From Planctomycetota bacterium (GTDB lineage Bacteria; Planctomycetota; Brocadiia; Brocadiales; Brocadiaceae): DNA of 32,844 bases. Below are positions 3,433-32,844 of the stretch, in pieces; within the stretch, counting starts at the first letter, position 1; every line of letters begins with the position of its first letter. The translations under genes and the position numbers were made by a program. The stretch covers positions 1 through 32,844 of the forward strand of contig VGXV01000037.1 in assembly GCA_016873165.1 (NCBI GenBank), in the 5' to 3' direction. A model generated the notes under the pieces. That model saw only the letters and a list, made by a program, of their open reading frames with translations. It ran no database searches and was not told the origin of the DNA.

Positions 3433-5202
3433 ATGAAAATCTACACATTACAGGACTTTCTTAATTACCTGGATAAAAACGGTGAACTGATGCGGATTAA
3501 AACGGAGGTGGACGCAAAACTTGAGGCCCCGGAAATTTCCATTCGCGCCCTTCAGCAGGGAATGCCCGCATTGCTTTTTGAAAACATAAAAGGTTCCCGA
3601 TTCCCGCTCGCAATGAACGTTCTTGCCAGCGATAAACGGATAGAACTGGCGTTGGGAAAGCATCCCGATCAACTGGGAGAGGAACTCATCACCTTCATGG
3701 AGGATGCAATGCCGCCGAAGCCAAAGGTATTGCTCAAACACCCGGGGATTACAAAACGCCTTTTCGCTACCCTTCCAAAAACAACGTTCTGGCCAACATC
3801 ACAGGAAGTAATTCAAGGGCCCGGCCTTAACGAACTACCCGTAATTACCTGCTGGCCGGAAGACGGAGGCCCATTCATCACATTGCCCCAGGTTTTCACC
3901 TACGATCCCCGTAACGGAAAACGGAATGTCGGCATGTATCGCATGCAGGTTTTTGATGACAAAACGACGGGCATGCACTGGCAGATACAAAAAGGCGGGG
4001 GATTTCATTATTTCCAATCCCAGAAAGCGGGAAAACCATTTGAGGTCGCAGTGGCATTGGGAACTGATCCTGCCCTTTTATTAGCCACAGTTGCCGCGCT
4101 GCCGGAGGGAATTGACGAGGTCATGTTTAGCGGTTTTTTGCGGGGTAGAAGAACACGGATGACAAAGGGCAAGACTATTTCAATAAACGTCCCTGCGGAT
4201 GCCGAATTTATTCTGGAAGGCGCCGTCCATCTCACGGAATTACGGATGGAAGGTCCCTTTGGCGACCATTTCGGACATTATTCAAACGCTGCGGAATTTC
4301 CTGTCTTTCATATTAATACTATTACGCATCGGAAAAACCCTGTGTATCCTGCGACCGTTGTTGGCCGTCCTCCGATGGAAGATAAATATCTGGGAAACGC
4401 GACACAACAAATACTCGGCCCCCTTATCCGCCTCATTCATCCGGAAATCAAAGACCTTTGGGCATATTACGAGGCAGGATTTCATAATCTGCTGGTGGTG
4501 TCCGTTGAGGAACGTTACCGGAAAGAAGCCATGAAAACGGCGCTCTCTATTATGGGAGAGGGACAGCTTTCGCTGACAAAATGCGTTGTCACCGTATCGG
4601 AAGGGGTAAACCCGCGTGATTTCAATGCCGTCCTCAGGGAAATCCATGAACATTTTGATCCGGCATATGATTTTATCATGATTCCGAAAGTGCCGCTTGA
4701 TACCCTTGATTTTACCAGTTACAAAATGAACCTTGGCAGTAAGATGATTATCGACGCGACAAAGGGCGGCAATGCAAAAGGAGGGGAAGAAAAAAATACA
4801 TCACGAAATCCCGAAGCAATAATAAAAAATATCGATAACAGAATACTCGACTGGAATCTTCTGGAAGAAACTCTTTTAGTTATTTCTGTAAAGGATAACG
4901 GAAGAGAGGTGGTGCAGAACCTTACAAAATCTCCTGAAATTGCCGGGCCGAAAATCATTGCCGCAGTGAGTCCTGATGTTGATATCCGCAACCAGGAACA
5001 AACAATATGGGGCATTTTCACCCGCTTCGACGCGGAAAGGGATATTGTATTCACAGAAGAAAAACTGGTCGGCATAAGCCCTGTTTTCAGAGGAAAAATG
5101 GGAATAGATGCCACATGGAAAAAAGGCTATCCTTCACCCCTTGTCATGCCGGGTGATATTATCGACAGGGTAAATAAAAAATGGGATGCATATTGGAGAT
5201 GA
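3433..5202 (+). CDS. UbiD-family prenylated-FMN decarboxylase
   Basis: This 589-residue protein belongs to the UbiD (3-polyprenyl-4-hydroxybenzoate decarboxylase) family. By motif comparison with E. coli UbiD and fungal Fdc1, the metal and prFMN ligands map to N165 (RNVGMYRMQ), H182 (GMHWQ) and E229 (DEVMFSG). The catalytic set maps to R170, E273 and D278 (EGPFGDH). All are present, so an active reversible decarboxylase is expected. It needs prenylated FMN made by a UbiX partner, which is not in this window. It is longer than E. coli UbiD, as is common in menaquinone-type and aromatic-acid members. Substrate cannot be told from sequence; quinone precursor or aromatic acid are both possible. 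The start has only a weak ribosome site. Confidence 0.9.
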   Translation: MKIYTLQDFLNYLDKNGELMRIKTEVDAKLEAPEISIRALQQGMPALLFENIKGSRFPLAMNVLASDKRIELALGKHPDQLGEELITFMEDAMPPKPKVLLKHPGITKRLFATLPKTTFWPTSQEVIQGPGLNELPVITCWPEDGGPFITLPQVFTYDPRNGKRNVGMYRMQVFDDKTTGMHWQIQKGGGFHYFQSQKAGKPFEVAVALGTDPALLLATVAALPEGIDEVMFSGFLRGRRTRMTKGKTISINVPADAEFILEGAVHLTELRMEGPFGDHFGHYSNAAEFPVFHINTITHRKNPVYPATVVGRPPMEDKYLGNATQQILGPLIRLIHPEIKDLWAYYEAGFHNLLVVSVEERYRKEAMKTALSIMGEGQLSLTKCVVTVSEGVNPRDFNAVLREIHEHFDPAYDFIMIPKVPLDTLDFTSYKMNLGSKMIIDATKGGNAKGGEEKNTSRNPEAIIKNIDNRILDWNLLEETLLVISVKDNGREVVQNLTKSPEIAGPKIIAAVSPDVDIRNQEQTIWGIFTRFDAERDIVFTEEKLVGISPVFRGKMGIDATWKKGYPSPLVMPGDIIDRVNKKWDAYWR

Positions 5203-5326
5203 AACAGCCGTTTAACTATTGAGAAAGATTTTAATTCAACACAAACCGTGAAGGACACGAAGATCACAAAGGTAATAATTCATGTTAGTACTAAAAAGAG
5301 GCAAAATAAACCGAACTTTTTTGAGC

Positions 5327-5451: not shown

Positions 5452-6422
5452 TTATTGTGCCATTGCTAAGTCAGATTTTGGTGATGTCTTTAGAATGTGT
5501 TCCGTCAAGGCATTGATAGCCGTTTTCTTCGAATCCATACCGGTATGTGAATACTTTTGCAACATTCCCAAACTTGAATGCCCCGTCATACCCTGAACAA
5601 CCACTGCACCGACACCAAGTTCACCCTGAAGGATACTTGCAAAGGTATGTCTCAGATTGTGGAATGTAAAGTTATCAATACCTAAATCCCTGAACAAATT
5701 GCTAAAATGCCTGCTGTGTTGCTCTATCACGTTTTTTGTTACACTACCCTCAATAAACAGCCTATCGCCGGAGTTTAATTCCTTCCACTTCCGTAACTCA
5801 TCAATAAGATAGTCGGAAATAGGTATTGATACCATCTTGCCGGTCTTATGGTTGGAACAGATTAAACCTTTGCTGAAATCAATATCCGTCCATGAGAGAC
5901 CCAAGACCCCGCCTAACCTTAAGCCGGTAAAGAGACCTATTAAGACCACCAGCCGATCTTTCCCTTGCAGTTTATCCACCAATAAAGTTATTTCCTCTTG
6001 CGATAATACCCTGTCTTTGGTCTGTGTTGTTTTAAGTTTCTTTACATGCTGGCATGGGTTCTTATACTAAGTTGCATTCATACATAAACTAATATATAAT
6101 ATCCTCAGGTAAATTTATTATAGGAGGATATTATATATTAGTTTATGTATGAATGCAACTTAGTATTATCGATAAGACCTTGTTTTATTGCCGTGTTAAA
6201 CATATTACCGAGAAAGGCAATATCCATATTGATAACCGTATCTTTCACCAGATCTTTTTCTTTCCTTTCAAGGCGATACCTTTCGATTATAAACGGTGTG
6301 ATCTTATCCAAACAACAATCCCCAAGATATTGCGTTAATACCTTAACAGCCCTTTTCTTTGCCAGTAACGTGTTCTCTTTATCCCCTCTGGATAATTCCA
6401 AATACTTTTCGCTGAATAGATA
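5452..6422 (-). pseudogene. Tyrosine recombinase/phage-type integrase, interrupted and 5'-truncated
   Basis: The C-terminal catalytic domain (read leftward from about 6063) keeps the tyrosine-recombinase signature: TGLRLG (Arg), HKTGK (Lys), HNLRHTF (HxxR), GHSSL (His) and a Tyr in QKYSH. An upstream piece (about 6422-6168) matches a SAM-like core-binding domain ending IKQGLID. A 102-bp palindrome plus TA duplication separates the pieces and shifts the frame. Deleting 104 bp rejoins GAT to AAG and gives GLIDKNPCQHVKK, typical of this family. Beyond 6422 an in-frame TAG follows and the N-terminal domain is missing, replaced by an unrelated small gene. It resembles ordinary phage/ICE integrases; I see no IntI-specific feature. 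Confidence 0.85.
6065..6166. mobile_element. 102-bp palindromic MITE-like insertion with TA target duplication
   Basis: Two arms of 43 bases (6064-6106 and 6124-6166) are perfect reverse complements around a 17-base loop. On the coding strand of the broken integrase, the insert is flanked by TA on both sides, and the reconstructed target reads GATAAG. TA duplication is the mark of IS630/Tc1/mariner transposases, so this is best read as a non-autonomous relative. Near-complete palindromy means it could extrude a long cruciform or RNA hairpin. No other copy is seen in the window. Confidence 0.75.
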
Positions 6423-6775: not shown

Positions 6776-7000
6776 ACCCACGAATTTTTGGATTCTAAAT
6801 TTTCTCAAACAGATCCCCCCCGTCGGGGTTGACCCCTACCCGTTAAGTCGCCAGTATTGGCCTTTCAATGTAACATTAAAAACCTGTCAGGACTTTTTGG
6901 ATTTCAAAATTACAATAAAGGACTTCCTTCGTCATCGGTTTTGTGCCGCCCATTGATTTATGGCTGCCCTTGAAACTCTGACGCGCATGCCGGTTAGTAT

Positions 7001-7046
7001 AATAGGGACAGCTACCATTTTTATGAAAATAAATAGTCGCTGTCCC
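7001..7046 (+). repeat. gggacagc element, copy 1
   Basis: A 46-base unit begins aatagggacagctacc and ends tagtcgctgtccc. The outer 8 bases (gggacagc/gctgtccc) are inverted, making an imperfect hairpin. Identical or near-identical copies are at 7353-7398 (opposite strand) and 10054-10099. Such units resemble the REP-like repeats mobilised by Y1 (IS200-like/RAYT) transposases; that link is from memory. Confidence 0.75.
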
Positions 7047-7125
7047 CGTTTACCCTGCAACCGATCCTGCTGGGGTAGGGGTAGGGGTTGCTGAAAGGCT
7101 GCTGTCCAGTTTACTGACAAAAACA

Positions 7126-7237
7126 TCAGTCGAGTAGGTTGGGTTGAACGTAAGTGAAACCCAACATCAACCTTTCGCTGCATTCAACAGTTTAAAGAAT
7201 GTTGGGTTTCGTTTCACTCCACCCAACCTACGCGACT
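7126..7237. repeat. Imperfect palindromic element (gtaggttgggt family)
   Basis: The outer arms agtcg-gtaggttgggt are inverted at the two ends, and the inner parts contain aacccaacat on both sides. A half-copy with the same aggttgggttga and gtgaaacccaacatcaacc parts lies at 32423-32460, so this is a dispersed repeat family. Confidence 0.7.
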
Positions 7238-7352
7238 AAATGTTTTATGCTTGTCGTTCCACAGTTTACACACTTTTCATGTTTTTTTGACCACATATCA
7301 AGAATATTTATCCTTTTATGATTTACAAGTTCCATCTAAACCTGGATAAACA

Positions 7353-7398
7353 GGGACAGCGACTATTTATTTTCATAAAAATGGTAGCTGTCCCTATT
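7353..7398 (-). repeat. gggacagc element, copy 2 (inverted)
   Basis: This is the reverse complement of the unit at 7001-7046. It lies 7 bases outside the left 52-bp inverted repeat and faces copy 3 at 10054-10099, so repeats in inverted order bracket the 7353-10104 block. Confidence 0.75.
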
Positions 7399-7405
7399 TC
7401 GCCAC

Positions 7406-7457
7406 TTAAAGGGAAAAACTCTTTATTGTCAATAGATTAGGTTTGACCCCATGTTTT
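7406..7457 (+). repeat. 52-bp inverted repeat, left copy
   Basis: The unit runs from ttaaagggaaaaactc to gaccccatgtttt. Its exact reverse complement is at 9913-9964. A shorter second ttgaccccatgttttt follows on each inner side. The pair encloses two attC-like sites and four genes, all pointing right, opposite to the other cassettes. Confidence 0.85.
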
Positions 7458-7461
7458 CCCC

Positions 7462-7872
7462 ATGTTTTATTTGACCCCATGTTTTTCCCTAAGAGCTATT
7501 CTTGCATTAATTTCCATTGTCGTAATAGAAGCATGGCACAAGATCTACGAACGGAATAGATTTTGGGGGGAAATTTCTAACGAAGTAGCTAGAGATATAG
7601 AAAGAAATTTTTCAGTGAATGGGCCTAGTATAGCATTTATGAAAGGCAATTTTGATAAAGAAATAATTCTGAAAAATACTGACGAAAATGGCGAGAAATA
7701 TAAAAATAATAATCGGCACTCTGAAAAATGCGATCCAAACTCTATGCATCTTCAAATGATGATATTGAGGTGGTGTTTAATATTTTTGACAATTTTTTCT
7801 GTGTTCGTTCCAGCAAAAAAAACTATCCAGCATGGAACTCAGGTCGAAACACAAAAACAGCAAACCAAATAA
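7462..7872 (+). CDS. Truncated cassette membrane protein of unknown function
   Basis: The open frame of 136 codons starts inside the ccccatgtttt repeat, so the first residues (MFYLTPCF) come from repeat DNA and the original 5' end may be lost. Two hydrophobic segments are visible: AILALISIVVIEAW near the start and MILRWCLIFLTIFSVFV near residues 100-116. A polar stretch with ERNRFWGEISNEVARDIERN lies between them. I do not recognise a family. An attC-like site follows the stop within 16 bases, as expected for an integron cassette. It is probably a fragment trimmed by the repeat insertion. Confidence 0.5.
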   Translation: MFYLTPCFSLRAILALISIVVIEAWHKIYERNRFWGEISNEVARDIERNFSVNGPSIAFMKGNFDKEIILKNTDENGEKYKNNNRHSEKCDPNSMHLQMMILRWCLIFLTIFSVFVPAKKTIQHGTQVETQKQQTK

Positions 7873-7887
7873 ATTAATCTAAAGGCA

Positions 7888-7977
7888 ATCTAACAATCCA
7901 ATCAACTTGAGCGCGAGAAGCGCGGCGGCGCTACGCGGTAAGGTCTGTGGCGCGCCATGTTATCGGAAACGTTATGG
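7888..7977 (+). other. attC-like recombination site 1 (weak)
   Basis: It opens with atctaacaatccaatc, matching the RYYYAAC core at 7888-7894, has a GC-rich hairpin-prone middle (gagcgcgagaagcgcgg) and ends near gttatgg at 7971-7977. The right core fits GTTRRRY poorly, so this site may be degenerate. It follows a gene stop and precedes the next gene, as attC sites do. Confidence 0.45.
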
Positions 7978-8025
7978 GGAAAAATAATAATTTACAATGA
8001 ATATTTTAACAAGTATACTTAACTC

Positions 8026-8907
8026 ATGAAATTACCTGTCGACCAAACTATTCATGATTTGCTAACAAATAAATTAAAATCTCTCGAAAAATATTTTAAA
8101 TCTGACGTTATCTCTTACTTTGGCCCAATTATCGATGGAAATGAAATACTTTTTATGCAAATCATTGAACAATTAAATAAACCAAAAAAGAAAAACAACT
8201 CATTATATATAATTCTTACCACTCAAGGTGGAAGTGCTATAGCAGTAGAAAGATATGTAAATATTGTAAGAAACCATTATCAGGAAGTTAATTTTATCAT
8301 ACCAGATTATGCTTATAGCGCTGGCACCATTTTTTGTCTAAGTGGGGATAATATACATATGGATTATTTTTCAGTTTTAGGTCCCATTGATCCTCAAGTA
8401 CAAAATAAAGAAGGGAAATGGGTTCCTGCCCTTGGTTATTTAGACAAAGTAAACGAGATGCTTGAAAAAGCAAAAAACAAAAATCTTACTCAAGCAGAAT
8501 TTTTAATACTAAAAGATATTGATTTGGCAGAACTAAGAGCATATGAGCAGGCAAAAGAACTAACAATTACGCTTTTAAAAAAATGGTTGGTTAAATATAA
8601 GTTCAAAAATTGGATAAAACACGGCACCGCACCCGAACTATTAGGCAAAGAAGTTACTGACAAAGAAAAAGAAAGGCGAGCCGAAGAAATTGCTGACGAA
8701 TTAGGTAATAATAAAACCTGGAAATCTCATGGGAGACCAATTAATATAGAGACGCTTGTAAATGAACCCAAATTAAGATTAAAAATAGAAGATTTTGGAA
8801 AACATCCAGAACGAAGAAAAATGATTCGAGAATATTATAACCTTTTGTCGGATTATATAAAAAAGAGCGGTTTGGAAATTTTCATCCACTCAAGGGAGTT
8901 TATTTAA
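8026..8907 (+). CDS. SDH/Clp-fold serine protease (SppA-like), cassette gene
   Basis: This 293-residue protein shows the crotonase/Clp-like protease core of the serine dehydrogenase proteinase (SDH_sah) family. TTQGGSAIAVERYV lies at about 65-78, the catalytic-serine motif AYSAGT has Ser98, and SVLGPIDPQ lies near 116-124. The C-terminal half is helical and charged. No signal peptide or membrane segment is seen, unlike classical SppA, so it probably acts in the cytosol. The gene is AT-rich, lies between two attC-like sites, and its stop overlaps the ATG of a 67-residue partner by one base (TAATG). Substrate unknown; a role in defence or peptide turnover is conjecture. Confidence 0.85.
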   Translation: MKLPVDQTIHDLLTNKLKSLEKYFKSDVISYFGPIIDGNEILFMQIIEQLNKPKKKNNSLYIILTTQGGSAIAVERYVNIVRNHYQEVNFIIPDYAYSAGTIFCLSGDNIHMDYFSVLGPIDPQVQNKEGKWVPALGYLDKVNEMLEKAKNKNLTQAEFLILKDIDLAELRAYEQAKELTITLLKKWLVKYKFKNWIKHGTAPELLGKEVTDKEKERRAEEIADELGNNKTWKSHGRPINIETLVNEPKLRLKIEDFGKHPERRKMIREYYNLLSDYIKKSGLEIFIHSREFI

Positions 8908-9110
8908 TGGAAAAGATAGATAAACAAATAATCAAAATTATTGACGATACCGAAAAGGATTTTAAGGGTGAAACTAACTATGAAGACTTAAGGGAAGCGT
9001 CTGAAATATATAAAGAGATGATAAAATTAGGTATTATTAAGAAAAGAGGTTACAGCTTATTATCCATCGATCAAACTAATATTAAACAACCTACCTTTAA
9101 TTCTCAATAG
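8907..9110 (+). CDS. Small protein translationally coupled to the SDH protease
   Basis: This is a 67-residue acidic/charged protein (MEKIDKQIIKIIDDTEKDFK at the start) with predicted helices and no membrane segment or metal motif. Its ATG overlaps the protease stop codon, so the two are almost certainly made together from one cassette. It ends 11 bases before attC-like site 2. It could be an adaptor, inhibitor or substrate-recognition partner of the protease, but sequence gives no direct hint. I do not recognise a family. Confidence 0.7.
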   Translation: MEKIDKQIIKIIDDTEKDFKGETNYEDLREASEIYKEMIKLGIIKKRGYSLLSIDQTNIKQPTFNSQ

Positions 9111-9120
9111 TTAAAATAAC

Positions 9121-9179
9121 CCATAACAATTCAATCCAGCGGACGGCAAAAAGCGCCGCCGCTGATTTCTGTGTTAGCT
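9121..9179 (+). other. attC-like recombination site 2
   Basis: A 59-base site runs from ccataacaattcaatcc to gtgttagct. The middle folds as CAGCGG-A-CGGC against GCCGCCGCTG with one unpaired A, the extrahelical base typical of integron attC sites. It lies between a gene stop (9110) and the next start (9199), with the gene-then-attC order of a cassette. Confidence 0.75.
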
Positions 9180-9198
9180 GCGAAGAAAGGAAACAGAA

Positions 9199-9894
9199 TT
9201 GGATACGCTCGCAACCGTTACCGAACTCGTCAAAGCTCTTGCATGGCCAGCAAGCGTGACGCTTATCGCAGTGATGCTGCGTCGTAATCTTGCCGAGCTC
9301 GTGCGGGGTGTCCGCCTTCAAAAGGCGGAAGTCCCTGGTCGGTTCACGGTAGAGTTCTCTCGGGAAATCGGAAAGACTCATAAACTACAGCAAGAGGTCA
9401 GAGAGACGGCGCGCTTCCAGAAGGGCGAGGACGTGTCGAAGAAACGTACCGAAGCCGACCGTATACTGCGGCAATCACGCTTGCACCCGTCGCCAAGTCG
9501 CTTCAACCTCGAAATGTACTACGACATGGTCAATGACGATCCCGCCGCAGCCCTTGTTGCCATTCGCGGCGAGATACAGGCGATGATCAACAGCATTCTT
9601 GATTTCCGTGTCATTGAATGGTCAGAGGCCGACTTCGCTGAACGGAAGCTGCGTCGTCTATATGACGACCGAGCTATCAACAACCACCAGTACACTCTCG
9701 CTCGTACTGTTCTTCGGCTCAGCAATGCTGCTGCCCGAGACAACACGGTCACACCAGACCAGGCCATCGAGGTACTTGATGCGACTCAGCCCTTAATTCA
9801 AGAGTACATGAGTTGGGTAGTTAAAGACCAAGCATTGAAAGACAAGCTGGGGAAACAAGGGACCCAACATGGGGGAGAAATAAAAGGCAGCTAA
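9199..9894 (+). CDS. Cassette protein with N-terminal membrane helix, unknown function
   Basis: The start is TTG at 9199, preceded by aaaggaaa at good spacing, only 19 bases after attC-like site 2. The 231-residue product has a hydrophobic segment (about 13-29, LAWPASVTLIAVML), a charged linker, and a helical C-terminal domain with ALVAIRGEIQAMINSIL and DRAINNHQYTLARTVL. This looks like the DUF4145-type helical domains of many uncharacterised proteins, but that is only a resemblance. Its GC content is clearly higher than that of the AT-rich protease gene next door, as expected for cassettes of separate origin. The stop lies just before repeat DNA (from about 9898), so the natural 3' end and its attC may be lost. 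Confidence 0.65.
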   Translation: MDTLATVTELVKALAWPASVTLIAVMLRRNLAELVRGVRLQKAEVPGRFTVEFSREIGKTHKLQQEVRETARFQKGEDVSKKRTEADRILRQSRLHPSPSRFNLEMYYDMVNDDPAAALVAIRGEIQAMINSILDFRVIEWSEADFAERKLRRLYDDRAINNHQYTLARTVLRLSNAAARDNTVTPDQAIEVLDATQPLIQEYMSWVVKDQALKDKLGKQGTQHGGEIKGS

Positions 9895-9912
9895 GACAAA
9901 ACATGGGGTCAA

Positions 9913-9964
9913 AAAACATGGGGTCAAACCTAATCTATTGACAATAAAGAGTTTTTCCCTTTAA
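9913..9964 (-). repeat. 52-bp inverted repeat, right copy
   Basis: This is the exact reverse complement of 7406-7457. It is preceded by a further acatggggtcaaaa unit at 9901-9914, matching the doubled gaccccatg motif on the left side. Confidence 0.85.
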
Positions 9965-10053
9965 AAAGATTATACGTTTAACAGTTTTGATCACAAGGAT
10001 ATGTTGGAATTGATTATATTCAGGTAAATCCATTTACCTCTATTTTATTATAT

Positions 10054-10099
10054 AATAGGGACAGCTACCATTTTTATGAAAATAAATAGTCGCTGTCCC
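10054..10099 (+). repeat. gggacagc element, copy 3
   Basis: The same 46-base unit as at 7001-7046, in the same orientation, and inverted relative to copy 2 (7353-7398). It is followed by tattt, also present beside copy 2. Confidence 0.75.
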
Positions 10100-10149
10100 T
10101 ATTTATCTTTGTCCTATTGAGCAGTAACTTTCTCATAATCTCGTGCCTA

Positions 10150-10647
10150 TCATTTCTTGCGAGGTTGAAGCTTTATCTTGGACCACTCTTCCGACTTGGG
10201 CGGTTCCATTACTGGGGGTTTTTGGCCTGCCCGATAATAACCCGGTTGTGTAAATCTTAGCTCTTCATACTTGGCAAAGTCACTCGCATGAGGTAACATA
10301 TCGGCTACGGCCTTAGGCTGCTCCAATCCTTCCCGCCAGACGCTTTTCTCCACGGTGCCAATTATTTGATAGTCACTCCCGATTACTTCCGGGTTATACT
10401 GGCGAAATAATTCCGTCAGTATATGCTCAACATCAAATTTGTGAGCAATGAGAAGATCACAATTCCGGCAATAACGACACGTATAGTTTAGCGCAACCAA
10501 GTGATTTGGGTCAACATGAATCAACAACGGTGTTTTTCTTTGTCCACTTTTTTTCTCGCATACTGGGCAACGCGAGAGTCGGTACCCGGGATAAGGGTTG
10601 AGCATAAAACTGTAGCGAGGCGGTAGATCGCCAAATCGTGCCTTCAT
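10150..10647 (-). CDS. Cysteine-cluster (zinc-finger-like) cassette protein
   Basis: The start is ATG at 10647; a TTG two codons upstream (10653) is a less likely alternative. The product is about 165 residues. It has CPVC (SRCPVCEKKSG) and, about 25 residues on, CRYCRNC, a probable zinc-binding knuckle. A motif-poor middle follows, then a proline- and lysine-rich tail ending LQPRKK. I do not recognise a family; nucleic-acid binding is plausible from the metal knuckle and basic tail. It follows attC-like site 5 (10711-10839) in cassette order and is read leftward. No attC is seen beyond its stop, where the gggacagc repeat lies instead, so the 3' boundary of the cassette seems replaced. Confidence 0.65.
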   Translation of the reverse strand: MKARFGDLPPRYSFMLNPYPGYRLSRCPVCEKKSGQRKTPLLIHVDPNHLVALNYTCRYCRNCDLLIAHKFDVEHILTELFRQYNPEVIGSDYQIIGTVEKSVWREGLEQPKAVADMLPHASDFAKYEELRFTQPGYYRAGQKPPVMEPPKSEEWSKIKLQPRKK

Positions 10648-10710
10648 GACCAATGTTATCCGATTAACCTTTCACTTACAAGTACCATGGACTGTACCTC
10701 ATTCGTGTAC

Positions 10711-10839
10711 CGCTAACGGTTTGCGTTACCTGCGTGTGGGCGGGCGTGGATTCTGTTTGGGAGCAGGAAAAACTCAAAGCGAAGAAAATGCTCGAAAATG
10801 CCGCAGAATCCCACACGTCAGGTGCACGCTTTGTTAGCC
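10711..10839 (-). other. attC-like recombination site 5
   Basis: The site is bounded by cgctaac (10711-10717) and gttagcc (10833-10839). The arms pair as ACCTGCGTGTGGG (10728-10740) against CCCACACGTCAGGT with one extra base, and GGATTCTG pairs with CAGAATCC further in. Such near-perfect pairing with a single extrahelical base, plus RYYYAAC/GTTRRRY-like ends, is the attC signature. It follows the stop of the nuclease-like gene at 10855, on the same (minus) strand sense. Confidence 0.75.
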
Positions 10840-10854
10840 CGCTTGACCGTACCT

Positions 10855-11805
10855 TCATATGGTCTGGATTAATTCTCCTTCTGTAATTTCAACGGCTTCC
10901 AATGGACGCCGTTGTGAAACGGATTTGGGGTTAGGAAATATGTCAATAGTTATTAAAAATATAGCTTTATGATTATGTGAAGCCATTGGAGTATTTCCTG
11001 AAGTAGACAAGGCAAAGCGCAATTCCGTCTCTACTATTTTAAAGATAATGAGGTAGCCAAAAGGTTCATTGTATTGTTGGGTATATGTGTAGATTTGATT
11101 GAACCCTTTCCTTATGTACGTTTTTCCCCGATTATCTGCGTCAAATATTTTCGTATCTGCTAAAAGTGGGTCGTCAGAGCCTTGTGCTGCTATTAAATCA
11201 ATTTCACCAGTAAGGGACGATGGTTCAATGGTGAAATCAATTCCTTGATTATGTAAATACTCATATAAATCAAGTGCAAGTAATTTCTCTGCGCGACGGG
11301 ATTCTTCTTGAGTTATATTCCAAAGACGATCACGATGAAACCATTCGCAACGATGTTTGTAACGGAGTAGTAGGTTGAGCATAGCTCGTTGGTCATCAAT
11401 ACTCTCATCTAGAAATTCATAAAAAGGTTCCAGATAAATATCTCTGCATGTTTCAAGAGCTTCATTGAATTTTGATGTTCTACGATATGGATTAGTAAGG
11501 GTGATAAATATTGTATGGTTCTCGTAAGTTGCAAGACGTTTTAGGACTTTATATCCAAGTGCCGCAGCCTCATCTTCAGTTTGAGCTACTAACCCTTCGC
11601 CTTTAAATATTTTCTCTACAGTTTCATCCATTTCTGGGTAACGTGCAGCTAGATGTTCGATAACTCCAGAAAGTATCGGATTATTATCGAAAAATACCCA
11701 AAACTGTCGTAGAACTGGGATAAACATTGGAAAATCAACCGAATTTAACCTGCGGATTCGTTTCTGGAGCTTATATCTTATGTTTTGTATGATTTGTGGA
11801 TCCAT
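10855..11805 (-). CDS. PD-(D/E)XK nuclease-like cassette protein
   Basis: This 316-residue protein has an all-helical N-terminal part (1-185) and a C-terminal domain with the order of PD-(D/E)XK nucleases. E194 and GEIDLI (E201, D203) come first, then LLADTKIFD (D217, K219) on the next strand, then RKGFNQIYTY with Q237. The family includes restriction enzymes and many defence nucleases; activity here is inferred from motif order only. It starts 11 bases after a zinc-ribbon gene on the same strand, and both lie between attC-like sites 3 and 5, so they form one two-gene cassette. No signal peptide or membrane segment is seen. Confidence 0.7.
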   Translation of the reverse strand: MDPQIIQNIRYKLQKRIRRLNSVDFPMFIPVLRQFWVFFDNNPILSGVIEHLAARYPEMDETVEKIFKGEGLVAQTEDEAAALGYKVLKRLATYENHTIFITLTNPYRRTSKFNEALETCRDIYLEPFYEFLDESIDDQRAMLNLLLRYKHRCEWFHRDRLWNITQEESRRAEKLLALDLYEYLHNQGIDFTIEPSSLTGEIDLIAAQGSDDPLLADTKIFDADNRGKTYIRKGFNQIYTYTQQYNEPFGYLIIFKIVETELRFALSTSGNTPMASHNHKAIFLITIDIFPNPKSVSQRRPLEAVEITEGELIQTI

Positions 11806-11816
11806 AATTTTGAGCC

Positions 11817-12056
11817 TTATAAACGAATTGTAATCTTGCCAATTTTCTTTATTTCTTCTTCAAATTCTTGAAACGCCCTAGTAATTGATCTAATTGCTTT
11901 GCGAGTTTCATTCATATGGTCTTCAAATCTAATGGTTGTTTTACACCCTCGGCAAATTATTGCATCTCGAAGCCGAACTTGTTTTAGAGTAAAAGGATTA
12001 AAAAAGCCACACGATGGGCAAGGAAATTCAAGAGAATGGTTATCCAAGTTAATCAT
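11817..12056 (-). CDS. Small zinc-ribbon protein paired with the nuclease-like gene
   Basis: This 79-residue protein has four cysteines in zinc-ribbon spacing: C13 and C16 (CPSC), then C35 and C38 (CRGC). A helical charged tail follows (EFEEEIKKIGK). It begins 22 bases downstream of attC-like site 3 and ends 11 bases before the PD-(D/E)XK-like gene, so it is the first gene of a two-gene cassette. It may bind nucleic acid or act as a partner or specificity factor for the nuclease; that is inference from pairing. Confidence 0.7.
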   Translation of the reverse strand: MINLDNHSLEFPCPSCGFFNPFTLKQVRLRDAIICRGCKTTIRFEDHMNETRKAIRSITRAFQEFEEEIKKIGKITIRL

Positions 12057-12077
12057 TTGAGGTTATTTATATTCTGC

Positions 12078-12187
12078 GGGCTAACGCCCGAATTAACCCG
12101 CGCCGAGCGCAGGCATTCAACGCGGGAAGAATAAATTAATGATGAAACGAATGATATTAAGGCGTCGGGTTGAATGAGTTGTTCGGC
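12078..12187 (-). other. attC-like recombination site 3
   Basis: Read on the minus strand, the site starts gccgaacaactcattcaacc and ends gggcgttagccc, the classic layout of integron 59-base elements with YAAC and GTTA cores. It is about 110 bases long with partly pairing GC-rich ends and an AT-rich centre. It sits between the stop of the GIY-YIG-like gene (12227) and the start of the zinc-ribbon gene (12056). Confidence 0.75.
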
Positions 12188-12226
12188 GCGGCATTGGCAA
12201 GAATTTCGCGCCAATTAAATTGATTC

Positions 12227-12580
12227 TCAATCTTCATCATCTCTATTAAGCATTATGTTCCAATCATAGTTATGACGCCTGAGTAGATTGTCCTGTCTCT
12301 GTTTCGCAGCCTCTTTAGATGAACATGCACATGCACGATAATATAAATGCCAGCCCGCACGCAGATGCTTGTCAATAATGTCAGATAGGTGAGAGCCATT
12401 TCTAGCATAACAAGCGATTCGCCCACGTTCGTTTCTTGTCTCACCTACATAATGCCATTGAATCCTTCCGCCTTTTGGGCCTCCTGTGCCAAGTTCATAG
12501 CAGGCAGGGCCAGCATGATCGAATGAATCGTCAAACCATTCACCCTTATATGCAATTAATCTCGGTTTAGTCCATCCCAT
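12227..12580 (-). CDS. GIY-YIG-like nuclease-domain cassette protein
   Basis: The product has 117 residues. Features fit a divergent GIY-YIG fold: ACYELGT (positions 26-32, in place of GIY), WHYVGETRNERGRI (YVG at 44-46 and R54), ARNGSHL, and a late E90 followed by a YDWN motif near 105-108. GIY-YIG enzymes cut DNA using Tyr, Arg and Glu, all of which have candidates here. It is one of the shortest forms, with no DNA-binding addition, so its target is unclear. The gene stands alone between attC-like sites 4 (upstream) and 3 (downstream), a typical single-gene cassette. Confidence 0.65.
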   Translation of the reverse strand: MGWTKPRLIAYKGEWFDDSFDHAGPACYELGTGGPKGGRIQWHYVGETRNERGRIACYARNGSHLSDIIDKHLRAGWHLYYRACACSSKEAAKQRQDNLLRRHNYDWNIMLNRDDED

Positions 12581-12612
12581 CGCCTACGACTCCATATTAA
12601 TGTCAAACAAGC

Positions 12613-12675
12613 GCCGAACGCCCAGCCATAAGGCGCGGCGGCTTTTTGCCGTCGCCCTTAATGCCGTGGTTGGCT
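12613..12675 (-). other. attC-like recombination site 4
   Basis: A 63-base site reads on the minus strand from agccaaccacggcattaagg to gggcgttcggc. The middle pairs as CGACGGC-AAAAA-GCCGCCG with mismatches and bulges. It lies 20 bases beyond the stop of the 640-residue membrane protein and 33 bases before the next start, matching cassette order. Confidence 0.75.
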
Positions 12676-12694
12676 TCTGATCATCCTTCTACCT

Positions 12695-14617
12695 TTAAGG
12701 GCACTGCCAGTAAGTCCCGCTTTTAGATGTATAATAATTGCATCCACGGCAAACATATATATTTCTATTGTAGCAATATCCTATAGATGGACGTCCACAT
12801 ATTTGACATACTGTCCCCCCTTTGCTTGGTAATAGCTCAGCGGTTACGGCACCGGAGGGTTTGCTTTCTAGTTTTTCACGAATTGCAACAACCCTATAAT
12901 ACACAGGGAACTCATTAGGCCAATGTTTCAGGTGTGTATTATTAACGTTTTCATGCTCTGAATTACTGGTAATAACGTCACTATTATATGACCAATAAAC
13001 CTTATATGCGTTTGCACCTGGTACAGCATTCCAACTTACATCCACACTCAAATTTGAATTCAATTCAGATTTTGGTCTCGACGGTGTCGAAGACTTGAAT
13101 AAATTATTAATCTTAATTTCAGCTTTTTCCCCTAGAGAAGTATTAGGATTATTTTTTACAAAATTTTGATATTCTGTAAAACTATCAATATTTGTGAGTT
13201 TAGTCCAAATGCTATTTAGTTCTTTCTGCGCATCCTTAACATATGGCGATTTCGGGTTGTTTTTAATGAACGATTCAAAAGAGTCAACGGAGCCGATTTT
13301 TTGAATAGCATGCCATTCCTTTGCATGAGCCACTTGAGTATCAAGTAGTGCTCTATCATTACGAACGTCATTTAATTTATTATTTAGTTGTTGGGATGAT
13401 TCTTTTGCTTTGGCCAATTCGGATTTTGGGACGTTAATAATCGTTTCGTTAACAATTTTTGATGAATGTTCCCATATTGTTTTTTCAATATCACTAGGCT
13501 GTTGAATAATGTCTTTCGAAATATTTCCTATTGACTTTTCTATCCTGTTCTCAATTTCCTTGTTTAATGTATTTTGGAATACATCAATAATAGGTTCAAG
13601 AATTGGATATGCTTCAATCCACGATTTCAATAGTGCTGTCTTTATCTCGCTAACTATAACTTTTGGAATTTGGTAAATGACTTGCTTACCCCATTCGGTT
13701 TCAAGAAGTTTTATAACTCTTTCAGGCTTTTGACTATTCTTATACCTAATAATAGCGTCATTAGCGTTCTTTAATTTCTTTCTGCTTACCTTGTTAGGGT
13801 CAATTTGAGAAGATTTTCCCTTCGTTACAGCACTATTACTGTCAAAACGAATAGTTGAATCTAATTTTGAAAGATAATTTGTCTTTTCTAAATGCTTGTC
13901 GATTTTAGATTCTAATGTCGGTATATTAAGTCCATATTGTAAGCGTTCACTTGAATAGTAACGCTGAAGAGAAACAAACTCATTACCAATTTGTGCTGGA
14001 ATATTAAGAGCATGCCTATAATAATCAGGAAAGCTATCCTTTACTTTCAAAAAAAGACCATCAGTCACTTCTTCAACAATTAACTCTTGGACATCTTTCT
14101 CGAAATCCGCATAGCCATCTCTAATAGTTTTTATATGGACATATAGATCATTTGTTGGTTCTCCTACCTGTGTGCCAAAAAGCGTGAAAGAGCATAACAA
14201 TACTAATGTAATATATAAACGTCTGGTCAAAGTCTTGTATTTGTCGATAGCAGTGAGTAGTTTTTTCGATACTAATACAGGCAACCTTAATAAGCCAATT
14301 ATAAATATGAACAAAAATAGAAAAAATACTTGTTTGGCACTCAGGTGTAAAAACGAAAAATAAGATGTCAATCTTGTAAGAAATAATTCAAGATTAATTA
14401 GGAATTGAAGATTGGCATTTTTAGAACTTATTGATACTATAATTGGAATTAGAGAATAAAGCGCGGCGACGAAAATAAAAGGTATCAAGAATTCTAGACT
14501 ATAGAAATAAAAATGGTACAGTATATTATGCTTTCGTTGATCCTTTTCAAAGGAACGGATATTTCTATAAAAAACGATTGTAAACACCAACGCTATTACT
14601 AAGAGAATTACAAGCAT
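12695..14617 (-). CDS. Membrane protein with coiled region, FN3-like domain and terminal zinc ribbon
   Basis: The product has 640 residues. About four membrane helices occupy residues 1-155 (for example MLVILLVIALVFTIVFY and VFFLFLFIFIIGLLRLPVL). A long polar helical region (160-500) contains tandem SFESFIKNNPKSPY- and SFTEYQNFVKNNPNTS-type units. Then comes a fibronectin-type-III-like domain (about 525-595, DVSWNAVPGANAYKVYW). The C-terminus is a four-cysteine ribbon (CQICGRP then CRGCNYY). A strong AGGAG lies 8 bases before the ATG. The stop is next to attC-like site 4, but no attC is seen upstream of the start. Function unknown; the mix of a membrane anchor with a sensor-like tail is unusual. 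Confidence 0.75.
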   Translation of the reverse strand: MLVILLVIALVFTIVFYRNIRSFEKDQRKHNILYHFYFYSLEFLIPFIFVAALYSLIPIIVSISSKNANLQFLINLELFLTRLTSYFSFLHLSAKQVFFLFLFIFIIGLLRLPVLVSKKLLTAIDKYKTLTRRLYITLVLLCSFTLFGTQVGEPTNDLYVHIKTIRDGYADFEKDVQELIVEEVTDGLFLKVKDSFPDYYRHALNIPAQIGNEFVSLQRYYSSERLQYGLNIPTLESKIDKHLEKTNYLSKLDSTIRFDSNSAVTKGKSSQIDPNKVSRKKLKNANDAIIRYKNSQKPERVIKLLETEWGKQVIYQIPKVIVSEIKTALLKSWIEAYPILEPIIDVFQNTLNKEIENRIEKSIGNISKDIIQQPSDIEKTIWEHSSKIVNETIINVPKSELAKAKESSQQLNNKLNDVRNDRALLDTQVAHAKEWHAIQKIGSVDSFESFIKNNPKSPYVKDAQKELNSIWTKLTNIDSFTEYQNFVKNNPNTSLGEKAEIKINNLFKSSTPSRPKSELNSNLSVDVSWNAVPGANAYKVYWSYNSDVITSNSEHENVNNTHLKHWPNEFPVYYRVVAIREKLESKPSGAVTAELLPSKGGTVCQICGRPSIGYCYNRNIYVCRGCNYYTSKSGTYWQCP

Positions 14618-14876
14618 TCCATGTCTCCTTTACCGTTTGCTTGTATAAAATTAAGGCCAACAAGTTATTATACAGTTTCTGGATATCATTACTTTTTGTA
14701 TGCTAACCAGAAAAATACACTTATTTTAGTAGAAATACTATAAGTCGCATTTTGTTTATGCGTTAAAATTAAATACATTTAAAAAATTCTATTAAAATGG
14801 CAATCTTTTTTCTTAAAAACATTATCCAGTCATCAGGGTAACAAATTAAATCCTTTCTCACAGAGTAATCTTATAA

Positions 14877-15432: not shown

Positions 15433-15449
15433 AATATTTGCTTGAAAAA
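15433..15449 (+). repeat. Putative right attachment site, 17-bp direct repeat
   Basis: This is an exact second copy of aatatttgcttgaaaaa from 5327-5343, about 150 bases before the start of the FadL-like gene. Confidence 0.55.
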
Positions 15450-17580: not shown

Positions 17581-20500
17581 ATGCACAAATCAATGCGTTT
17601 ACTTCGTCTCCCTATCATACTCTTTTCTTTGTTTTTCCTCTTTTTCCACCAATCAGAAGCTGCCGAAAAAGGACAAATTATATCTTTCAGGGAAAATACC
17701 GTAACAAAAAACGTTTTTTACGAAAAGAGTTGGGCGGTGATCATCGGCATAAACGACTACGAATACTGGCCTGAGCTTTCTTACGCGGTAAATGATGCAA
17801 ATGATATAAATGAAATACTGAAAGAAATGGGTTTTGAAACAAAGGTTTTTCTTAATAAAGAGGCAACCAAAGACGCTGTCATGAGCTATTTAATGAATGA
17901 ACTTCCCCAGAAAATTGAAAAGGAGGACCGTCTGATTCTTTTCTTTTCCGGACATGGGCATACCAGTACGTTTAAAACAGGCAATAAAAGAGGATTTATC
18001 ATCCCTGTTGATGGCAAAAAGGAACAGCCATACTCCAACATATCAATGAATGATTTGCTGAATTTAACCGAGATGCTAAACGCAAAGCATATCTTTTTTA
18101 TCCTGGATGCCTGTTTTGCAGGTTCCCTTGTAACTCTTGCGAGTGAATCCAGAAGCAAAGGATATAGTGAGTCGAATTATGATATCGAGTACGTAAAAGA
18201 ATTGGCAAAAAAGAACGTTTGTCAAATCCTTACCGCCGGAGGCGATAATCAGAAAGTTATAGAGATAGACGGACACGGCATTTTTACACTGGAACTTATA
18301 AAGGCATTAAAAGGAGCGGCTGATCATGATCATGATTATTACATAACCGGACTACAGCTTGCAAACTATGTAAGACATCAGGTAGCCCTGCAGAGTAAAA
18401 CCAGACAAATGCCTATTTATGGCGAATTCTTTTCTCAGGGCGGGGATATGATATTCATCCTGCCCAGGACGCTTGATCTCGATTATGAAAAAACAAAGTC
18501 CATGGTGCTTCAGGAAACCGATATAGACAGGATACTGAGTATTTACAACAACTTTTGCAAAAAGCATAATGCCGGAGATGCATATATCGAATTACTGGAT
18601 AATGACTGCAAGGCAAAGATCGCGGAAATTCAGGCAGGAAACCAGATAATACGCATGATAAGAAATGTCTCCCATTTTAATAAAACGGGAGAAATAATGG
18701 AAATGTATGGTTCTTTTGCAAAGCAATATCCCGAAAGCGCGTTTTTAACAAAGATCAACGACGAAATCGGCGTAATGACGCAAAAAATCATCCGTTTAAA
18801 TGAACTGGAATTGAAAATCAAATCTTCAGAATCAATGAGTGAATTGGAAATGATGAAAGAAGAAATGGCAGCGATTCAAAAAGACTATCCTGAATACAGT
18901 GACATATCTCCCGTTATTATGGAACTATGGGAATCAAAGAAAAATATGCTCGAAGAGAAAACAAGGGAGAAAGTCAGCATTGCAAAAAAAAGTATTGAAG
19001 ATGCCGCAACTACAAGGGATATAGAAGCCATAAAAAATAACTTTTATGACAATAACCTCTGGGAACACACATTGAAGCCGATCGCAAAAGAAAAGGAAAA
19101 GGAGCTTGAATATATCGAAACGAAGATGTACAAAGATGCGCAAGACAAAGTGGCAAAAGCAAAAAGCGCCTATGATGTTTACCTCATCTATATGGAATTT
19201 AATGAGAAATTTCCCCGCAGCAAATATCTGGAATCTCTTGATGAAACCACCAATTTGAAAAATGCAGAATTAAAAATGAGAGAAGTGAAAACCGTAGATA
19301 ATGTAAATACTGTCCTTGCCGAATTTCTGGATATTCTTCAATCGGACGAGAATAAGAAAATATTGGAAGAACTGGCAAAAGAGGAGTGCAGAAGAATCCG
19401 ATATGCCGACGATGAAGAAATCCGGGAATCGCAACATGACAAGATAGCCAATGCAAAAGACCTTTGCGAATTAAACCGGATAGAAGAAGGGGTAATCGCA
19501 TACATCGGGGCTCATCCTGATTATAAGGACACCCCTGTGCTGCAGGATTTATTAAAAAATAAACGTGCTCAACTGGAGGCGCAAAATCAGTCTGATCTGA
19601 AAATAGTAAAAAAAGAGCTTGATAACGAATGGGACCCTGAAGACGTCCTTTTGGTAGCATCAATATTTGGGGAAAAATATACCTGCAATATTTTTATAGA
19701 GGAATTAGACAAATATGCAAACACAAGAGTGTCGAAGTTGAAAGAAATTGCCGAAGAGTATGACTCAATAATAAAAGGCATAAGCGAATCGGCAGATTTG
19801 ACATTGCTTGCAGCAGTTAAAATACGTATGGAAAATTTTTTAAAGGAATATAAAGACTATCCCAACGCAGCGCTATTGCCTGACAATCTGCAAAAAAAAT
19901 ACACCGAATTGAAAGGACACGAAGAACAAGTATTTGAAAGCGCAAAGAAAAACCTGGAAAAGGCGCAAACAACCGGCGACGCCGAACTTGTTTACAAAAA
20001 GTTTGAAGAAACCTTTCCCGGCAGTAAATTTCTTGTCACATTAAAAGAAATAACCGAACTGAGAAAGGCAAAGATTTCCATAAAACCGGCGGAAGGAGAT
20101 ACATGGCAGGATCCTATAACAGGAATTGAATATGTCTATATCCCCGGTGGTTCTTTTTATATGGGAGATACATTTGGCGATGGGGATGATGAGGAAAAGC
20201 AGTTGGTAAAAGTGAGCGTAAAAGGCTTCTGGATGAGCAGGCACGAAGTAACACAGGGTGCGTGGAAACAAATTATGTATAACAATCCATCATATTTTAA
20301 AAACGGAGACGGTTTTCCGGTTGAAATGGTGAGCTGGAATGATGTTCAGATTTTTATTAAAGAATTGAATTCGCTTCATCAGGGTGTTTACACATTCCGG
20401 CTTCCAACGGAAGCCGAATGGGAATATGCATGCCGTGAAGGCGGAAAACAGGTCAGATTTGGGAATGGCGAAAATAGTATCGATCCAAAGAAGGCTAACT

Positions 20501-20823
20501 TTAACGGAGACGCCCGGTTTAAAGAACCGTATTCCATTGCGGGAGAATACAGAAAACAAACAACAGCCGCGGGAAATTTTTCCCCTAATAGCCTGGGACT
20601 TTATGATATGAGCGGCAATGTATGGGAATGGACACAGGATATCTATGATTTCAAAACAACCGCAGAAACTTCAAAAACGAACCCTGAAAAATATTATGTG
20701 ATTCGTGGCGGTTCATGGAATTTCAGGCCCCGGCATCTGCGGGCGTCAAACAGAACCGGTTTAAAAGGCACGGCACGGATTTGGGATACCGGATTTCGCA
20801 TCGTTCGCCAGGCAGGAAATTGA
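17581..20823 (+). CDS. Secreted caspase-like protein fused to FGE-sulfatase-type domain
   Basis: The product has 1080 residues; ATG follows AGGTGAG at 5-base spacing. A signal peptide spans 1-27. The peptidase C14 domain (about 48-295) has H125 in FFSGHGH and C178 in ILDACFAG, so the catalytic dyad is intact. A DHDHDYYITGLQ loop (248-259) looks like a degenerate EF-hand. Residues 300-840 are helical repeats with recurring motifs such as FNEKFPRSKYL and FEETFPGSKFL. The C-terminal 235 residues are an FGE-sulfatase/SUMF1-type domain (IPGGSFYMGD, FRLPTEAEWEYAC, YDMSGNVWEW, RGGSWNFRP, GFRIVR). The two FGE catalytic cysteines are missing, so this part probably binds rather than oxidises. It is convergent with a second caspase gene. 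Confidence 0.9.
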   Translation: MHKSMRLLRLPIILFSLFFLFFHQSEAAEKGQIISFRENTVTKNVFYEKSWAVIIGINDYEYWPELSYAVNDANDINEILKEMGFETKVFLNKEATKDAVMSYLMNELPQKIEKEDRLILFFSGHGHTSTFKTGNKRGFIIPVDGKKEQPYSNISMNDLLNLTEMLNAKHIFFILDACFAGSLVTLASESRSKGYSESNYDIEYVKELAKKNVCQILTAGGDNQKVIEIDGHGIFTLELIKALKGAADHDHDYYITGLQLANYVRHQVALQSKTRQMPIYGEFFSQGGDMIFILPRTLDLDYEKTKSMVLQETDIDRILSIYNNFCKKHNAGDAYIELLDNDCKAKIAEIQAGNQIIRMIRNVSHFNKTGEIMEMYGSFAKQYPESAFLTKINDEIGVMTQKIIRLNELELKIKSSESMSELEMMKEEMAAIQKDYPEYSDISPVIMELWESKKNMLEEKTREKVSIAKKSIEDAATTRDIEAIKNNFYDNNLWEHTLKPIAKEKEKELEYIETKMYKDAQDKVAKAKSAYDVYLIYMEFNEKFPRSKYLESLDETTNLKNAELKMREVKTVDNVNTVLAEFLDILQSDENKKILEELAKEECRRIRYADDEEIRESQHDKIANAKDLCELNRIEEGVIAYIGAHPDYKDTPVLQDLLKNKRAQLEAQNQSDLKIVKKELDNEWDPEDVLLVASIFGEKYTCNIFIEELDKYANTRVSKLKEIAEEYDSIIKGISESADLTLLAAVKIRMENFLKEYKDYPNAALLPDNLQKKYTELKGHEEQVFESAKKNLEKAQTTGDAELVYKKFEETFPGSKFLVTLKEITELRKAKISIKPAEGDTWQDPITGIEYVYIPGGSFYMGDTFGDGDDEEKQLVKVSVKGFWMSRHEVTQGAWKQIMYNNPSYFKNGDGFPVEMVSWNDVQIFIKELNSLHQGVYTFRLPTEAEWEYACREGGKQVRFGNGENSIDPKKANFNGDARFKEPYSIAGEYRKQTTAAGNFSPNSLGLYDMSGNVWEWTQDIYDFKTTAETSKTNPEKYYVIRGGSWNFRPRHLRASNRTGLKGTARIWDTGFRIVRQAGN

Positions 20824-21039: not shown

Positions 21040-22155
21040 TTAATCTGCGCGTTCTAACAAAAAGAATTCTCCTCTTCCTTCCAGCCTGCCGCCCCGGGGA
21101 TTTTGTTTCTGTAGTGAATCTTTCGAAACATGAGTATGAAGGTATTCTTCCAATTCCGAACAGAGAACGAAACCGTCATCATTGATGTCCGATTCTCCTT
21201 CGAAGGCATGTAATAAATGCCGGGTAAAAAGGTCAATGCCGTTTGCCTCCTGAATGAGTTCGCCGGCGTTGCATGCAGTAATCACATAAACAATCTTCTC
21301 CGGCGCCATTGCCTCAAAACTATCGATAACGTGTTGAGCGCCATCTTCAGATTCTCTTATGTCAGGAATAGATATGCAGGAATCAATAATATAAAAAATA
21401 TGTTTTGCCGGAATGACAGCGGAGATATCTTTTAACTGTTCGATAGAAATAACAGCGCGTGATACATCGGCAGATGGCGCATCTGCGGGAATAAGGTAGC
21501 TGTTTTTCCTTCCCTTGGAAGCATCCTCATTCCGGCTATGCCCTGCGAAATAAACAAGCACAAGGTCATTTATCCCTGCTTTTCCCATAAGATTATAGTG
21601 AAGTTCATCAAGAATACGGTCTTTAACCGCTTCTCTGTCCAGTAACGTAACAATCTGGTCAAATCCGATCTCCTCAAGTTTTTGCTTAAAAGCAAGCGCG
21701 CTATTCACCGCATAACCCAATAGAGGCCAATTCTCATAATCATCAATCCCTATTATGATGGCAAAAGATGTAGTATAGAAATCCGGTATTTTTACACGGG
21801 TTTTCTTCTTGATTTCAGTCCCCTCTGCATCCGCTTCGTCGCCTTCAACTATTTCCTCACTATGTTTCTTCAACATGTCGATACAATAGCGAAGTTTTTC
21901 ATTGGGAGCATAATCATAATATATCATTCCGATACGAATTTTTTTATCATCCGGCTCAAGAGAAACCGCTTTCCTGAACAATTCAATCGCCATTTCGTAG
22001 TCATTGCTTTTTATCGCTTTTAAACCCTTTTCATAAGTTTTTAATGCCATTGTTACCGCAAAACCCGTATTGCAATGAAAAATCACAAACACGAAAAGGC
22101 ACAAAATAAATGTTGAAATTGCCTTTCGTTTTTGGAGAAGTTGGGGCATATGCAT
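21040..22155 (-). CDS. Secreted TPR-caspase family protein with EF-hand-type loop
   Basis: The product has 371 residues. A signal peptide or anchor lies at about 11-33 (ISTFILCLFVFVIFHC), then a TPR-like pair (about 37-105, ALKTYEKGLKAIKSNDYEMA). A peptidase C14 caspase-like domain (about 128-345) follows, with H206 in VYFAGHS and C260 in IIDSCIS. A textbook calcium loop lies at 323-334: D323, N325, D327, G328, V330, E334. Bacterial caspase homologues often need calcium, so calcium control is plausible. The gene faces the caspase/FGE gene tail to tail, with only the GGAGCATT element between. Substrate and role are unknown; regulated proteolysis in the periplasm is the likely setting. No clear ribosome site is seen; a second Met is at residue 3. 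Confidence 0.88.
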   Translation of the reverse strand: MHMPQLLQKRKAISTFILCLFVFVIFHCNTGFAVTMALKTYEKGLKAIKSNDYEMAIELFRKAVSLEPDDKKIRIGMIYYDYAPNEKLRYCIDMLKKHSEEIVEGDEADAEGTEIKKKTRVKIPDFYTTSFAIIIGIDDYENWPLLGYAVNSALAFKQKLEEIGFDQIVTLLDREAVKDRILDELHYNLMGKAGINDLVLVYFAGHSRNEDASKGRKNSYLIPADAPSADVSRAVISIEQLKDISAVIPAKHIFYIIDSCISIPDIRESEDGAQHVIDSFEAMAPEKIVYVITACNAGELIQEANGIDLFTRHLLHAFEGESDINDDGFVLCSELEEYLHTHVSKDSLQKQNPRGGRLEGRGEFFLLERAD

Positions 22156-32211: not shown

Positions 32212-32844
32212 GTCTCCTTGTATTGGATTACTTGCGCAATTATTTAATCAGTAAAGACGCATCGATTCCCCTCAATCAAATCAAATAATTGCTTTAAGGC
32301 ATGAAATATTTTAGGTAAACAGGGATTATCACGGGGACTAAAAAATACTAAAATTATTCAAACGAACATTCAAGAGTTCTGTTGTTCATCCAAGGGACTT
32401 TAATCTTCGGTAATGAGTTGTAAGGTTGGGTTGAATGTAAGTGAAACCCAACATCAACCTTGTTCATTTCAATGCGCTGTTTCCATTCAATGGAGATGCG
32501 GAGAATTGAATATATGGCGTTAGTGATTTGACGAAGGAGCGCTGGAAATAATACCGGGATACGATAGCGGACGCCGCGATGCCTATGACAAGGCTACCTA
32601 TCAATATTCATAATTCATCTATTGCTCAACCCTTGAGTTTGTTCCCCATCGCAAAGCTGAGTGACGAGTGCCACTTGAATGACACCTATCAGCTCAAAAA
32701 CTGTCTGAACTGCTTAACCCGACTTTCGCAATTCGAGGGGTAGATAACCCGCTGAGCCAGTAAAATCAAGGGGTCGTATAAAAAGGTCGGCACTACATAC
32801 CAACCCGCCCTGACGCATAAACCTTTGGTGGAGGTTGTTCGGGA
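32212..32844. other. Right end of window, no convincing gene
   Basis: Over 600 bases hold one half-copy of the gtaggttgggt repeat (32423-32460). A 53-codon frame starts at 32589 with ATGACAAGG, but its product has no recognisable feature. GC rises toward the end, which could be the edge of another mobile element cut by the window. Confidence 0.4.
32423..32460 (+). repeat. Half-copy of the gtaggttgggt palindromic element
   Basis: It matches the left half of the element at 7126-7237, sharing aggttgggttga and gtgaaacccaacatcaacc. The inverted right half is absent. Confidence 0.65.

Follow-up and report, generated by a model that had tools for sequence, protein, structure and literature searches.

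Introduction

Integrons of the Planctomycetes and an attC model for this phylum have been published previously (PMC8352920), as has the intI gene of K. stuttgartiensis (PMC3607928). A sedentary chromosomal integron is carried by Candidatus Kuenenia hertensis (locus L155), in which an intact intI is followed by attI and at least eight attC sites. CALINs are defined as clusters of two or more attC sites, spaced within 4 kb, that lack an integrase (PMC9668308, PMC9024848). They have been described as degraded integrons, and integrase-less clusters are overcounted in draft genomes (PMC9024848).

In this study, we analysed a 32,844-nt stretch of DNA (the window) from a Candidatus Kuenenia genome of 4.05 Mb, assembled in 191 contigs and rated 100% complete. 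The initial annotation had placed an integrase-less cassette cluster, a CALIN, inside an integrative element of a probable planctomycete. With its counterpart in K. hertensis, the UbiD gene (3433-5202) shares 93% identity. The host is therefore an anammox planctomycete, in agreement with that assignment.

The locus shares with L155 its attC architecture, attI core family, orientation away from attI and genus. Unlike L155, it has no intI, has been invaded by repeats and carries a partly reversed array. It falls within the definition of a CALIN, having five attC sites with neighbours less than 4 kb apart and no integrase, but it retains attI, which reveals that it arose as an integron platform. 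The attC sites of a class 1 integron (aadA7, aac(3)-Id) have the same R''-L''-L'-R' structure, whereas that integron is mobile and of the resistance type, with an intact intI1 and different cassette genes. Published planctomycete and spirochaete integrons (PMC3607928, PMC8352920) belong to the same phylum or integron lineage; the published work on them centres on a complete intI or on attC alone, whereas the window has attI and attC sites without intI. Decayed integrons are a known kind, and we regard the locus as a further example of one and not as a new system.

Results

Two covariance models, R1 (arms only) and R2 (full length), were built for this analysis in place of those of IntegronFinder. 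They were trained on 24 attC sites near intI genes from other Brocadiales genomes, with the host genome excluded. The training set showed stem covariation (88.7% of cells paired, compared with 68.9% in shuffles). The default filters were kept, because R1 run without filters failed to detect two long sites, attC1 and attC4. On the window, R1 matched attC4 (44.5 bits, E 2e-8), attC2 (44.1 bits, E 2.5e-8), attC1 (26.2 bits, E 3.6e-4) and attC5 (22.7 bits, E 2.4e-3); its next-best match had an E-value of 0.68. R2 matched attC4 (47.7 bits), attC2 (47.0 bits), attC1 (26.2 bits, E 3e-4) and attC3 (23.8 bits, E 1e-3), with nothing further at E<10. attC5 was recovered by R1 alone and attC3 by R2 alone, and attC1 and attC5 are modest matches. 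As a positive control, the same models were applied to a class 1 integron, whose aac(3)-Id and aadA7 attC sites scored 53-56 bits. In the negative control, about 133 kb of other host-genome sequence, matches were confined to integron remnants on contigs C8 and C4. An Rfam search of the window gave no match. A pattern scanner combining AAC/GTT cores with a stem score did not tell real sites apart from Markov shuffles, and with a folding term it was better, yet still noisy. We therefore relied only on the covariance-model results.

Two sites lie on the plus strand: attC1 (7888-7977; 90 nt, R'' ATCTAAC, R' GTTATGG) and attC2 (9121-9179; 59 nt, R'' CCATAAC, R' GTTAGCT). The other three are on the minus strand, namely attC3 (10711-10839; 129 nt, R'' GGCTAAC, R' GTTAGCG), attC4 (12079-12187; 109 nt, R'' GCCGAAC, R' GTTAGCC) and attC5 (12613-12675; 63 nt, R'' AGCCAAC, R' GTTCGGC). 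The single extrahelical base reported earlier for attC2 and attC3 was seen in both. Folding z-scores were -3.5 for attC2, -1.5 for attC1 and -0.9 for attC4. All five sites are intergenic, 10-40 nt past a stop codon. With a pairwise identity of only 35-63%, they do not form a single repeat family. Across the host genome, none of 35 attC midpoints fell inside an ORF of at least 120 aa, compared with 64% of random positions; the copies inside ordinary genes that would mark a dispersed repeat were thus not found.

attC3 is identical at 118 of 124 positions (95%) to a site in another genus (G012:C1:1826717-1826840, locus L233). This homology runs exactly from CTAAC in the R'' core to GTTA in the R' core, and the flanks have no further homology. 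Sites 87-91% identical to attC2 are present in four genomes (G001, G012, G022 and G013), again with homology limited to attC. In such sites IntI would recombine the bottom strand, once folded, at G^TT, and the cross-genus homology stops at the core sites. The layout is that of an integron cassette array, with several attC sites between genes that have R''/R' cores and an L''/L' stem. We conclude from the sequence that all five are genuine attC sites. The initial annotation had proposed five and had looked to a covariance model for at least three hits; our own R1 and R2 recovered all five at or very near the proposed places.

On the minus strand, the order from attI is cassette A, attC5, cassette B, attC4, cassette C, attC3 and a truncated ORF. 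Cassette A (12619-14660, minus strand) extends from the attI core to G^TT of the attC5 core, and its ORF (12695-14617) encodes a 640-aa protein with no Pfam match. Cassette B (12085-12618, minus strand), between the attC5 and attC4 cores, contains an ORF of 117 aa (12227-12580) with a GIY-YIG domain (Pfam PF19239, E 2.8e-9), for which no plasmid homologue was found. Cassette C (10717-12084, minus strand), between the attC4 and attC3 cores, has two ORFs. The 79-aa product of 11817-12056 had a weak zinc-binding match; the 316-aa product of 10855-11805 had a weak PADLOC match to PDC-M14B and no phage homologue was found for it. PADLOC gave only weak matches on the cassette genes. A fourth cassette starts after attC3 with an ORF of 167 aa (10150-10653, minus strand), is cut short by repeats at 9913-10107 and has no attC after it.

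The plus-strand genes begin with an ORF of 136 aa at 7462-7872, probably a cassette gene whose start was truncated by a repeat. The cassette that follows (7972-9173, plus strand) has ORFs at 8026-8907 (293 aa) and 8907-9110 (67 aa), of which the first encodes a ClpP-fold, SDH-type serine protease (Pfam PF01972, E 7e-19) with about 46% identity to plasmid-borne homologues. The last gene (9199-9894, plus strand; 231 aa, 54% GC) is a cassette gene without its attC and ends at a repeat. As had been noted initially, the cassette genes differ in GC content, with ORFs ranging from 28% to 54%.

attC1 and attC2 are carried by a block of about 2.5 kb (7406-9964, plus strand) between perfect 52-nt inverted repeats at 7406-7457 and 9913-9964. 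Outer palindromic repeats of 54 nt with 98% identity lie at 7345-7398 and 10054-10107. When 7406-9964 is flipped back, all five attC sites have a single orientation. The repeats and the attC orientation suggest that this block was probably inverted. The inner 52-nt repeat family has about 20 copies in the host genome.

Other repeats were also observed. Two short repeat families, often paired, are found at 6998-7055, 7345-7457 and 9913-10107. They have about 20 copies in the host and more in genomes G001 and G021, and copies sometimes adjoin other attI or intI fragments. A 39-nt repeat occurs on both sides of the window (7136-7174 and 32423-32461, 97% identical), and related copies lie near integrons on contig C29 and in K. 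hertensis. A tyrosine (Xer-like) recombinase gene at 5452-6401 is disrupted by an inserted perfect palindrome of 103 bp. This element (6064-6166) has perfect 43-nt inverted arms and a 100% copy at C28:10452-10558 of the host, and an uninterrupted recombinase copy on contig C79 shows a 4-bp overlap at its junction. Elsewhere in the window, 17581-20823 and 21040-22155 hold a caspase domain fused to a sulfatase-modifying-factor domain, beside a TPR-caspase gene. A TPR protein at 29555-31465 is built from 102-bp tandem repeats that are 66-89% alike.

A site at 14657-14833 on the minus strand sits directly before the first minus-strand cassette, just outside the range covered by the initial annotation (7462-14617). 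It has a 22-nt core, AGAAACTGTATAATAACTTGTT, at 14659-14680, which is followed by GGCC (GTTGGCC), and about 150 bp upstream are conserved. It was spotted through 63 nt that recur at 92% identity on contig C79 of the same genome and end 4 nt past GTT, beyond which the two copies diverge into unrelated cassettes. Against K. hertensis, the site aligned over about 180 bp at 76% (C83) and over 156 bp at 82% (C9). The window agrees at 22 of 22 positions with the core seen in relatives, where it is found at several intact integrons, 437-721 bp upstream of intI and pointing in the opposite direction. The individual loci show one mismatch (L033, L034 and L155), three (L035) or 5-6 (L037, L064 and L065). 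The core pattern, with at most two mismatches, occurred in 28 of 59 genomes, and a reversed control pattern gave few matches. Where an attC lay within 1.5 kb of a core copy (seven distinct loci), it invariably lay downstream, oriented the same way. The sequence after GTT differs at each copy, and core copies mostly lead into GTTRRRY-like cores. Since core equivalents lie near intact intI and downstream attC sites share their orientation, we called the 14659-14680 motif attI. These comparisons indicate that 14657-14833 is an attI site equivalent to those near intact intI in relatives. At attI, a scan for sigma-70 promoters found no more matches than in shuffles; we therefore claim no promoter, despite the TATAAT in the attI core.

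The host genome holds eight attI copies, six of which (on C37, C79, C20, C8, C13 and C64) have an attC within 2.5 kb downstream in the same orientation. The copies in K. hertensis and other genera likewise have same-orientation attC sites downstream. A second attI type was observed on host contigs C6, C8, C13, C64 and C19, with up to 185 bp in common ending at the GTT core; only C8 among these retains an intI fragment.

As the initial annotation had stated, no IntI was found in the window; in a similarity search the Xer-like recombinase alone gave a weak match. The genome's contigs were also searched for attC and for intI, the latter as that annotation had advised. The whole genome has about 35 attC sites and eight attI-type sites; R1 gave 34 matches with E-values of at most 10, of which 21 had E<1e-3. 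No intact intI was found in the assembled genome. It has truncated pieces only, on C28 (residues 1-88 and 188-315, the middle being absent), C4, C8 and C96, all internal to their contigs and not at contig ends. The piece on C8 is C-terminal and is separated by about 430 bp from the attI on that contig. Two full-length host ORFs with partial or weak TIGR02249 matches proved to be XerC/XerD. Of the relatives searched, 27 of 34 had attC at E<1e-3, and 24 of 59 had an intI scoring above the curated cut-off. On the upstream side of the window attI (14.8-15.4 kb) no recognisable intI remnant was found, so the loss of an adjacent intI is what we infer. Of the parts of a complete integron, the locus thus has attI, on sequence evidence, and no intact intI. 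The earlier view of an integrase-less cassette cluster stands; that of a CALIN without anchorage does not, because attI directly precedes the first cassette.

Discussion

We consider it likely, with a probability of roughly 0.85, that the locus is a decayed chromosomal integron of a Candidatus Kuenenia species which lost its integrase and kept attI and cassettes. In the proposed course of events, IntI would once have inserted circular cassettes at attI (14657-14833, minus strand), each time through recombination between this site and the folded bottom strand of an attC. Successive insertions would have extended the array in the minus direction, from A through B to C and beyond. The neighbouring intI would later have been lost, and repeats of the 'a/b' family would have invaded the array. 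The 2.5-kb block between perfect inverted repeats has probably flipped, which would have reversed two cassettes. The array would now be immobile unless IntI is supplied in trans.

The integron may instead be alive, with its intI in a missing or mis-binned contig or its cassettes served in trans. The assembly is a draft of 191 contigs, mobile regions are often absent from bins, and K. hertensis retains an intact intI. However, the assembly is rated 100% complete and the intI fragments lie inside contigs, and we regard this explanation as distinctly unlikely.

Another explanation is a true CALIN, in which cassettes were inserted or transposed without attI and the 22-nt motif is an unrelated promoter-like repeat. 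It would account for the absence of an intI remnant adjoining the motif in the window and for the many motif copies in relatives that have neither intI nor attC within 1.5 kb. It does not fit the similar divergent position of the motif upstream of intact intI in several genomes, the GTTRRRY-like core that mostly follows the motif, or the uniform placement and orientation of nearby attC sites, and is very unlikely.

A further explanation is that an integrative element, driven by the Xer-like recombinase at 5452-6401, carries the cassettes as cargo. A second copy of this recombinase lies on host contig C79, which also has attI and attC, and 5.2-15.4 kb has no counterpart at the K. hertensis locus of either flank. 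The homology to K. hertensis ends at 5230 and resumes at 15433 on another contig. Since the UbiD and FadL flanks are on different K. hertensis contigs, a simple insertion cannot be read from this break. The window recombinase gene is broken by the palindrome, and a search around the locus for att duplications, a tRNA target and further element genes found none. A working integrase and flanking att repeats, as in an ICE or IME, were thus not found, and the placement inside an integrative element given by the initial annotation was not upheld; we consider the cargo explanation highly improbable.

Chance hairpins or a dispersed hairpin repeat, which the moderate folding of attC1 and attC4 might suggest, can practically be dismissed in view of the R1 and R2 E-values, the intergenic position of all 35 sites, the low pairwise identity of the five window sites and the cross-genus homology of attC3 bounded exactly by the core sites.

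The sole unusual feature is how many attI copies lack an intI. A literature search, with most subscription journals outside its coverage, returned no description of this locus or of anammox attI sites. A tentative and, in our view, rather unlikely idea is a scattered integron, in which many attI sites with short arrays, most without intI, rely on one or two IntI proteins acting in trans. If so, K. hertensis, with an intact intI and at least two intI-less attI arrays (C9, C83), would be the working form, and the host genome, which has eight attI sites but lacks an intact intI, would represent the extinct one.

The locus shows the gain, decay and rearrangement of an integron in anammox bacteria. 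Its lineage-specific attI signature could serve to locate platforms without an integrase, for which a search for attC by itself gives no anchor, and it raises the question of whether several attI platforms may share one integrase within a genome.
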